Shown piece by piece: positions 7,181 to 63,336 of a stretch of 63,336 nt of DNA. The position numbers and the translations under genes are program-made. The stretch is from assembly GCA_022787565.1 (NCBI GenBank), contig JALFVN010000011.1, positions 1 to 63,336 on the forward strand, written 5' to 3'. Positions within the stretch are counted from its first letter, which is position 1. Each line of letters starts with the position of its first letter. The notes under the pieces were generated by a model. It saw only the letters and a list, made by a program, of their open reading frames with translations. It made no database searches and was not told the DNA's origin. Source of the DNA: Clostridiales bacterium (GTDB lineage: Bacteria; Bacillota; Clostridia; Oscillospirales; Oscillospiraceae).

Positions 7181-7208
7181 GACCGGCTGAAACGGGTTTC
7201 AGCCGGTC
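7181..7208. repeat. Gene-end hairpin, left copy flanking family A element
   Basis: An 11-12-bp stem (GACCGGCTGAAA with its complement) around a CGGG loop. The 26 bases 7183-7208 recur exactly at 7418-7443 on the other side of the element. The right copy is followed by ATTTTCC and looks like the original tctA terminator; the left copy runs straight into the element. Confidence 0.85.
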
Positions 7209-7417
7209 GAGACTGTTAAAAATCTATACTTCAATCGTCGACAATAGAGTCGCAGGGGAGCGCGAGGGGGTAAGGCCCGCCTCGCGTTACAATAACCCGC
7301 CGCCAAAAAGCTTGAAAGATCAAGCTTTTTGGGCGAAGCAGCGTTTTGAAGAAATCAAAACGCTCGGCGGTTGAAGCGGTCAAAAAAGTCCCTCTGGGTC
7401 TTTTTTGACAAGCTGGC
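7209..7417 (+). mobile_element. Family A structured repeat element, copy 1
   Basis: About 205 nt, non-coding. It starts GAGACTGTTAAAAA, ends TTTTTTGACAAGCTG, and contains several hairpins: GCGAGG/CCTCGC, an 11-bp stem AAAAAGCTTGA, a stem GCGTTTTGA, and a terminal stem beginning GTCAAAAAAG. It is closely related to 20094-20296 (opposite orientation) and to the start of 63038-63336. It is bracketed by exact 26-bp copies of the local hairpin. No protein is encoded. Confidence 0.85.
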
Positions 7418-7443
7418 CCGGCTGAAACGGGTTTCAGCCGGTC
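7418..7443. repeat. Gene-end hairpin, right copy flanking family A element
   Basis: An exact repeat of 7183-7208. See that entry for the stem. It lies 21 nt before the ATG of the next gene, so it may also attenuate transcription into the downstream membrane-protein gene. Confidence 0.85.
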
Positions 7444-19129: not shown

Positions 19130-19576
19130 ATGGAACGGGAAGAATATATGTCTCTTGCTCTCGCTCTGGCAAGGGAGGCGGCTCAGGCCGGCGAGGTGCC
19201 GGTGGGCTGCCTGATCACAGACGGTGAAGGCCGTATCATCGGCCGGGGCCGGAACCGCCGGGAGGAGAGCGGCGACGCTACCGCCCACGCGGAGGTGGAG
19301 GCTATCCGGCAGGCCTGCGCCGCTCTGGGAAACTGGCGGCTGGAAAACTGCGTCCTCTATGTGACGCTGGAGCCCTGCCCCATGTGTACCGGGGCCATCA
19401 TCAATTCCCGTATCCCCACGGTGGTCTTTGGGGCGCGGGAGGCTCTTTCCGGTTCCTGCGGCAGTGTGATCGACCTGTTTTCCGAAAATTACGGCCATCA
19501 TCCCGCCGTTTTCGGCGGCGTCCTGGCGGAGGAATGTGCCGCGCTGCTGCGGGATTTTTTCCGGGGGAAACGATGA
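19130..19576 (+). CDS. tadA: tRNA-specific adenosine deaminase
   Basis: A 148-aa cytidine-deaminase-fold protein. The zinc site is visible as HAEVEA (His plus the catalytic Glu) and PCPMC (two Cys). It deaminates A34 to inosine in the tRNA-Arg anticodon. ATG at 19130 follows TTGGAGG. The stop overlaps the RAYT start (ATGA), so the transposase gene is translationally coupled to an essential gene. Confidence 0.93.
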   Translation: MEREEYMSLALALAREAAQAGEVPVGCLITDGEGRIIGRGRNRREESGDATAHAEVEAIRQACAALGNWRLENCVLYVTLEPCPMCTGAIINSRIPTVVFGAREALSGSCGSVIDLFSENYGHHPAVFGGVLAEECAALLRDFFRGKR

Positions 19577-20076
19577 AAGAAAATGCCAAAAGGAAAAGCA
19601 CTCGCCTGAAAAACTACAATTACAGCCAAAACGGGGCATATTTCCTCACCATATGTACAAAAGACCGCAAAATGCTGCTCGGCAGCGTAGGGGCCGGCGT
19701 CCCCGACGGCCCACAGGTCCACCTTTCGGAATATGGAGCAGAAGTTGAAAAAGTCATTTGTTCTATCAACGACACATATGAACATATCTCCATTGAAAAA
19801 TACGTTGTGATGCCGAATCATGTCCATATGATTGTACTGATCGATCGTGGCGCAAACGGGCCGTCGAGGACGCCGGCCCCTACAAACGCTGATATCCCTG
19901 CGCTGGTATCTGTTTTCAAACGCTTTGTTAATCGGAGAACGGGGCAGAATATTTGGCAGCGGTCCTATTATGAACATGTTATTCGCGGCGGGCAGGACTA
20001 CCTGGAAATATGGAAGTATATCGACGAAAATCCCCTGCGCTGGAACGAAGACGAATATGCAAAAACAGACGGCTGA
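19573..20076 (+). CDS. REP-associated tyrosine transposase (Y1_Tnp / RAYT)
   Basis: A 167-aa HUH-type transposase-like protein. Seen: the HUH motif in MPNHVHMIV (about residues 76-84), and the C-terminal FWQRSYYEHVIR-type segment followed by WKYIDENPLRW, where family members carry the catalytic Tyr. The N-terminal RLKNYNYSQNGAYFLTICT is also typical. It is a single domesticated-looking copy with no IS ends. The last codons and stop lie inside a 33-bp hairpin that is repeated 203 nt downstream around a family A element. Confidence 0.9.
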   Translation: MKENAKRKSTRLKNYNYSQNGAYFLTICTKDRKMLLGSVGAGVPDGPQVHLSEYGAEVEKVICSINDTYEHISIEKYVVMPNHVHMIVLIDRGANGPSRTPAPTNADIPALVSVFKRFVNRRTGQNIWQRSYYEHVIRGGQDYLEIWKYIDENPLRWNEDEYAKTDG

Positions 20077-20093
20077 CAGCCGTCTGTTTTTCA
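20061..20093. repeat. Gene-end hairpin, left copy flanking family A element
   Basis: AAAAACAGACGGCTG pairs with CAGCCGTCTGTTTTT; the 33 bases recur exactly at 20297-20329. The RAYT stop codon (TGA, 20074-20076) is in the centre of the stem. Confidence 0.9.
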
Positions 20094-20296
20094 GCTTGTC
20101 AAAAAAGTCCTTTCAGGGCTTTTTTGCGCTTCAACCGCCGAGCGTTTTGAAAAATTCAAAACGCTGCTTCGCCCAAAAAGCCTGAAAAATCAGGCTTTTT
20201 TGCGGCGGGTTATTGTAACGCGAGGCGGGTCTTAACCCCCTCGCGCTCCCCCGCGGCTCTGTTGTCGACGATAAAGCATCGTTTTTTGGCGGACTC
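20094..20296 (-). mobile_element. Family A structured repeat element, copy 2
   Basis: 203 nt in the opposite orientation to copy 1. Read on the minus strand it begins GAGTCCGCCAAAAAACG and ends TTTTTTGACAAGC. Internal hairpins match those of copy 1. In the AAAAAGCYTGA stem a T-to-C change is matched by A-to-G on the other arm, keeping the pair. It lies between the RAYT gene and the convergent phosphoribosyltransferase gene. Confidence 0.88.
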
Positions 20297-20329
20297 AAAA
20301 ACAGACGGCTGACAGCCGTCTGTTTTTCA
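20297..20329. repeat. Gene-end hairpin, right copy flanking family A element
   Basis: Exact 33-bp repeat of 20061-20093. It lies 16 nt past the end of the convergent phosphoribosyltransferase gene and can terminate both strands. Confidence 0.9.
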
Positions 20330-63010: not shown

Positions 63011-63037
63011 AGAAGGCTTCCGCAACGGAAGCCTTCT
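63011..63037 (+). terminator. Terminator hairpin of carB
   Basis: A 12-bp stem, AGAAGGCTTCCG with CGGAAGCCTTCT, around CAA. The usual T run is missing because a family A element begins at once. By analogy with the other two loci, a second copy of this hairpin is expected beyond the window. Confidence 0.8.
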
Positions 63038-63336
63038 GAGACTGTCAAAAAACTATGCTTTTTCGTCGACTATAGAGCCGCGGGGGAGCGCGAGGGGTAG
63101 CAAAGCGGCGCTGCGGTAGTGAATGACATGCCGGTGGCATGTCAGAGCCGCAGCGTGACCGAGCCTCAGCGAGACCAAGACCCCCTGCTCTCCTTGCCGC
63201 AATGCTGTTTGCGGGCCTGTTTCACGACGGCCCGCAAACAGCGCGGCTGCGGAAATTGCGCATCGTCTTCATCTGCCACAGGCAGCGACGAAGCGCAATA
63301 CTCGCGTTACAATAACCCGCCGCCAAAAAGCTTGAT
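63038..63336 (+). mobile_element. Family A structured repeat element, copy 3, expanded and cut by window end
   Basis: Begins GAGACTGTCAAAAAACTATG like copy 1. After GCGAGGGG it carries about 200 extra bases (63098-63300) not present in copies 1 and 2, then resumes with CTCGCGTTACAATAACCCGC and AAAAAGCTTGAT to the window end. The extra part itself has hairpins: TGACATGCC/GGCATGTCA, and a 14-bp stem GCTGTTTGCGGGCC. No gene seen. Confidence 0.82.

Follow-up and report, generated by a model that had tools for sequence, protein, structure and literature searches.

Whole-hairpin duplications around a short, probably IS1182-derived element in a Clostridiales genome

The element and its flanking hairpins

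The window (the whole 63,336-nt stretch of a Clostridiales genome that was analyzed) contains copies of a short element bordered by hairpins. The first copy is a 207-nt MITE on the plus strand (7209-7415; left end GAGACTGT, right end GACAAGCTG). It lies between two copies of a hairpin, neither assigned to a strand, at 7181-7208 and 7416-7443, the left of which follows the gene named tctA in a preliminary description of this DNA. A terminator scan marked 7181-7208 as terminator-like on the minus strand and 7418-7441 as terminator-like on the plus strand. The 26-nt exact repeat that had been reported on the two sides of the element (7183-7208 and 7418-7443) is indeed present; with boundaries set by the terminal inverted repeats, the element spans 7209-7415 and the duplicated unit is a 28-nt hairpin with one mismatch.

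The earlier claim that a different hairpin is duplicated at a second locus was likewise borne out. At this locus, a 205-nt MITE copy on the minus strand (20092-20296) separates two exact copies of a 31-nt hairpin (20061-20091 and 20297-20327, no strand assigned), and the entire shared stretch measures 34 nt. Neither hairpin was flagged in the terminator scan, their loop being shorter than the scan allows. An open reading frame at 19384-20076, which resembles a REP-associated tyrosine transposase and scores under both curated cut-offs, has its stop within the duplicated hairpin. A third MITE copy, in a long form on the plus strand, is truncated by the end of the window (63038-63336); the hairpin on its left (63011-63037, no strand assigned) has a matching hairpin past the right end of the MITE, at the start of contig C8 (L017).

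Bacterial MITEs are generally short, lack a transposase, and have inverted ends and a target duplication. No transposase coding sequence was found in the 207-nt element, and no listed frame of at least 120 aa lies within it; the element occurs in multiple copies, and its ends are common with an autonomous IS. These ends form an imperfect inverted repeat; read inward, each of the two is (G/C)AGnnTGTCAAAAAA. A BLAST search of the window's own genome gave 48 matches to the element, several of which are pieces of one element; most copies are about 205 nt long, with long forms of 321 and 397 nt and a shorter one of 167 nt (L028). In a search that covered the genus and other families of the order, with other genera of the same family left out, matches were found in 23 of 60 genomes (the window's own, which is counted, and 59 relatives), including 22 of the 36 other genomes of the genus and none of the 23 from other families of the order, the per-genome copy counts being lower bounds, with no more than 13 candidates scored. 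In addition, a degenerate core pattern matched 21 stretches in a named species collection, all of them in records titled Clostridia, Clostridiales, Eubacteriales, Ruminococcaceae, or Oscillospiraceae bacterium.

As single-stranded DNA, the interior of the MITE folds far better than shuffled sequences (z = -9.8), and 97.5% of the pair cells pair in an alignment of 49 copies. Two-sided changes were observed in 9 of 36 interior pairs, amounting to 86 cells compared with a shuffle mean of 31 and at most 19 in slid controls. The number of further pair types (24 versus 22.2 in shuffles) was not above shuffles, 80 of 500 of which reached 24. The first interior hairpin, which is visible in single sequences, was left unpaired by RNAalifold. 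The interior structure is probably maintained, and its candidate roles are a mobile terminator and a transposase-facing DNA hairpin. Identity with a known structured RNA or a group II intron was rejected, Rfam giving 0 matches in the window at gathering score.

Matching flanks and the geometry of the duplication

A total of 118 loci were gathered across the genus. The core was present in 116 of them and both ends in 63, and 61 also had at least 40 nt of flank on each side; the core matches left out were 53 with an end missing or too diverged and 2 with short flanks. Left and right flanks were compared against a null of 5000 mismatched left/right pairs (99th percentile 23, maximum 40). The score exceeded 23 in 48 of 61 loci, where 1% would be expected, and 40 in 39 of 61. 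The earlier claim that insertion leaves a hairpin on both sides is supported. The 61 include one insertion seen twice (L018 and L022, giving 60 separate loci) and some loci that are possibly orthologous between species (L127 and L129 look so), and one of the 48 matching loci, L139, is doubtful by eye.

Thirteen of the 61 loci were below the threshold. Two of these (L125 and L162) match with one copy inverted (scores of 40 and 34 versus 19 and 14), and the other 11 match in neither orientation (L012, L028, L030, L040, L043, L061, L133, L145, L148, L158, and L160). By eye, clear but different hairpins are present on the two sides of L028, L043, and L061, the outer stem alone is common to both flanks of L145, and in the remaining non-matching loci a hairpin is seen on a single side, or no convincing one is seen. 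The flanks match better with one inverted in 6 of the 61 loci (L039, L125, L129, L136, L158, and L162), and L056 and L247 also have an inverted look by eye, a pattern that flipping of palindromes might give; a palindrome, however, scores whichever way it is read.

The geometry of the duplication was analyzed in rebuilt empty sites by a free hairpin search, using 17 IS sites (see below) and 39 MITE sites, the latter being the loci among the 61 with distinct sequences that also satisfied a more stringent, ungapped comparison. The duplication length depends on the site, ranging from 18 to 41 nt overall (19-39 nt for MITE and 18-41 nt for IS sites). Exact centering on the hairpin dyad was found in 40 of 56 sites (25/39 MITE and 15/17 IS). 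The edges of the duplication lie at most 2 nt from both hairpin feet in 24 of 39 MITE and 9 of 17 IS sites, compared with 2.5% for random placement. The cuts do not always fall at the foot, and the stem often continues outside the duplication, by as much as 14 nt. The correlation between the length of the duplication and that of the freely found hairpin was only 0.64 for MITE and 0.17 for IS sites. In most of the remaining sites the stem runs past the duplication, and at L142 the search picked another hairpin; the rule is thus symmetry about the palindrome and not a strict foot cut. Strict foot-to-foot cutting was rejected, since the r of 0.98 measured inside the duplication is circular and the free search shows dyad-centering instead.

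An explanation by ordinary DDE transposition, with a long and variable stagger that favors intergenic terminators and with no direct part for DNA shape, would accommodate lengths of 18-41 nt and ends that are not always at the hairpin foot. However, dyad-exact centering in 40 of 56 sites is unexpected of a palindrome-blind stagger, which makes this explanation unlikely. The target is probably recognized by its shape, because the spacing of the cuts follows the symmetry of the palindrome and is not fixed.

IS1182-family partners and the breadth of hairpin duplication

Membership of the IS1182 family, defined by a score above the NF033551 cut-off of 270 bits, was found for the transposases at L080 (380.8 bits), L073 (389.8 bits), and L088 (296.7 bits). 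The L088 frame is broken, L080 and L100 are cut by the contig, and L099 has one stop. Both L088 and L099 have MITE-like ends and an exact repeat on both flanks, a 32-nt hairpin in the former and 41 nt in the latter. The ends in the duplicating IS1182 clade are such as CAGnnTGTCrAAAA, CAGnnTGTAGACAAA or CAGnnTGAAGACAAA, and ISfinder gives long or variable repeats for IS1182. By eye, the left 50 nt of the MITE resemble the left end of the IS1182 element beyond the terminal repeat (CTGTCAAAnAACTATGC, then AATAG and GGGGG). Because this resemblance extends past the inverted repeat, the MITE is, judging from sequence, probably an internal-deletion derivative of an IS1182 element.

No IS1182 transposase above the NF033551 cut-off was found in the window's own genome, and none of its proteins retrieved with three Pfam models and NF033551 has MITE ends or exceeds the IS1182 cut-off. 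The mobilizing enzyme is therefore missing from this genome or unassembled. Three transposases of the same genome were rejected as partners, as the MITE terminal motifs were not found at the loci of C36 and C34 or, partly by eye, at the ends of C59; NCBIfam identifies C59 and C36 as IS5-type. The own and related genomes also have a second type of end, TGTAGACAAA (L023 at about 1640-1700, L216 near the right tctA hairpin, L095, L118, and L121-L123). It adjoins IS1182-type transposase matches at L095, L118, and L121-L123, and it may represent a further family of MITEs.

With a probability of about 0.85, the element is a non-autonomous, internally deleted MITE of an IS1182-family DDE IS, one clade of which targets and duplicates palindromes. 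The preliminary description had held that DDE transposons do not duplicate hairpins; this view has to be given up, as both the ends and the hairpin duplication are common with IS1182-family DDE transposons. A very improbable alternative is that the hairpins are part of the element, as in a REP/REPIN-like composite moved by a Y1 transposase (RAYT), e.g., that of 19384-20076. A weak match to REP-associated tyrosine transposases does adjoin copy 2 (60.6 bits, cut-off 80; Y1_Tnp 20.6 bits, cut-off 23), but the flanking hairpins are unrelated between loci, no conserved REP palindrome is found at the copies, and the terminal repeats resemble those of IS1182 elements with the same kind of duplication. 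A RAYT/REPIN origin was rejected on the ground that the flanking hairpins differ between copies.

Duplicated hairpins were found around 17 IS1182 copies, 2 in the genus and 15 in other genera, plasmids, or phages, and 16 of the 17 are exact. An order-level set comprised 24 IS1182 loci, which came from 17 genomes out of 295 at an E value of at most 1e-90; at 10 of the loci, a palindromic repeat abuts the inverted repeats. Nine of these are exact, and in L247 two bases of the loop differ; a single IS of G300 accounts for four of the ten. Among plasmids and phages, where 334 and 14 records, respectively, had a match, 9 loci were chosen, and 5 of them likewise have a duplicated hairpin (Sutcliffiella horikoshii, Enterococcus faecalis pGTC3, Enterococcus faecium E6043, and Streptococcus phages Javan87 and phiJH1301-3), while two others, L284 and L287, are bordered by unlike hairpins. 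The IS loci were found by repeat scanning with, for L099 and the plasmid/phage loci, a filter that favors palindromes.

In a transposase tree, all 17 duplicating rows fell into one group of 29 rows (100/100 support), and none of the 20 other rows duplicates. The 12 non-duplicating rows of the group comprise eight with a different hairpin on each side by eye (L095, L096, L097, L238, L243, L244, L284, and L287), L288 without a clear left hairpin, L100 and L291, which were cut by the contig or record end when first fetched, and L101. At the right end of L101 (G088:C132), another IS1182-type end starts at the expected position of the right hairpin and the contig stops soon after, as if the other IS had replaced this hairpin. 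A second tree placed IS1182 rows from plasmids of Staphylococcus equorum, Butyrivibrio, Enterococcus casseliflavus, Bacteroides (ISBf3), and Subdoligranulum outside the duplicating group, with under half of the columns filled in four of these five added rows and with IS1272 not among the rows. The repeat scan detected no duplicated hairpin in the five. Copies lacking the duplication, which according to the preliminary description would refute its proposal, do exist in part: 11 of 61 MITE loci are without a match, and 8 of 29 IS-clade rows are mismatched, one of the latter being explained by recombination between copies.

Mismatched hairpins are common in the IS clade and need an explanation. 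L244, on the chromosome of G300, is bordered by hairpin A to its left and hairpin B to its right; in the plasmid pTVN (Thermocaproicibacter melissae, NZ_CP101828.1; L291/L292) the two are swapped, B being the left and A the right hairpin. The transposase row of pTVN is identical to that of L244, and the pTVN sequence is 100% identical to G300 contig C2 over the 560 bases searched. Recombination of one copy flanked by A with another flanked by B leaves just such reciprocal hairpins. This sequence comparison shows recombination as one route to mismatched flanks, known for L244/pTVN alone among the exceptions. Moreover, the reciprocal hairpins at the two IS1182 copies suggest that pTVN (19.4 kb, with a type III-A cas10 gene; replicon type not listed) is a circle that recombination between IS copies has either released from the chromosome or integrated into it.

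Single-hairpin empty sites, another check proposed earlier, were obtained at one orthologous site. At the insertion C63:144054-144376 of the own genome, beside a gene that we take to be clpP, the closest relatives G098 and G121 match both flanks with a 19-nt overlap (94 and 93% identity on one flank, 91% on the other) and have a single hairpin with the same core sequence. A match to this site was found in 96 genomes, and 28 sites were viewed; most hairpins of the 26 besides G098 and G121 have diverged in sequence (L189 has an irregular form, and L212 was seen in part). No empty site was found at the tctA locus, where G121 alone matched both flanks. G121 has another insert of about 550 nt there, between two copies of the same terminator, and the MITE is nested within this insert, in a second, duplicated hairpin. 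The loop of the tctA hairpin is inverted between the own genome and G121 (L216). Since the elements match from locus to locus but the hairpins around them are unrelated, it is the target that is duplicated and not a part of the element, as first proposed, and the single-hairpin empty site in the two closest relatives agrees with this. That a pair of hairpins preceded the element, which then originated or recombined between the two, is hardly credible: the hairpins on either side do differ in some copies, but there is one hairpin at the C63 site in the two closest relatives (91-94% identical flanks) and, by eye, in the other 26 orthologues viewed, and the L244/pTVN mismatches are reciprocal, as from recombination between two copies.

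Proposed mechanism and comparison with known systems

For the IS1182-derived MITE, the transposase most likely acts at the base of an extruded hairpin. The target hairpin would be extruded as a cruciform or as a single strand, two transposase-bound ends would join the symmetric 5' sides of two hairpins, and gap repair would copy the entire hairpin to both sides. In terms of the DDE reaction, joining of the element 3' ends to the 5' sides of the opposed hairpins, together with gap filling, would leave the hairpin duplicated. In the cases looked at, the target palindrome is often a terminator-like one at a gene end. Each flanking gene could keep a terminator, which would make the insertion nearly harmless. 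It is plausible that the duplication serves to keep both neighbors terminated, and this suggests how insertions may spare their neighbors, i.e., by leaving a terminator to each.

IS1182-family elements are reported to target palindromes (Siguier et al. 2015, as cited in PMC5678879 and PMC4923244), a feature found here as well. In the parts of these two reports drawn on here, hairpin targeting by the family comes with deletion of the hairpin: IS1272 is reported to replace or partly delete its target hairpin without duplication, and both the IS1272 data of Wan et al. (PMC5678879) and Furi et al. (PMC4923244) describe deletion. The present elements resemble IS1272 and TnSha1, as portrayed in the same parts, in belonging to the IS1182 family and in having hairpin targets that are often terminators and show no sequence consensus. 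Unlike IS1272, for which deletion without target duplication is described there, they duplicate the whole hairpin; the hairpin target is thus common with IS1272-type replacement, whereas hairpin deletion without duplication was not found. Hairpin duplication was drawn by Wan et al. as an alternative pathway b, and in the part of that report drawn on here no insertion is attributed to this pathway (PMC5678879). A literature search revealed, among the titles and abstract openings listed, none on whole-hairpin duplication by an IS. The loci described here provide many natural cases of an outcome otherwise found, in the sources so covered, only as a drawn model, namely a DDE transposase duplicating a whole stem-loop target, and shape-guided target choice is now directly testable.

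As far as the parts of PMC10969869 and PMC6382973 used here describe them, RUP and MITEAba12 are similar to the present MITE in being short, in lacking a transposase, and in having inverted ends and a target duplication. In contrast to these elements, the present MITE is bordered by duplications of an entire palindrome, whose length varies, and its interior shows a high degree of structure together with compensatory changes.

The odds are about even that the IS1182 clade reads DNA shape, acting on an extruded hairpin with a cut spacing set by the palindrome and not by a fixed stagger, and with duplication versus the deletion reported for IS1272 depending on the clade. If true, this would imply transposases that are structure-addressed and whose outcomes are mirror images; pairs of matching hairpins would then serve as barcodes that record later recombination. 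Matching hairpins are also a practical marker, pointing to insertion partners, contig joins, and recombination between copies. Contig ends with matching hairpins were observed for the window (63011-63336) and C8 (L017), and for the end of C1 (L014) and the start of C4 (L004); each of these pairs is predicted to join through a MITE copy.
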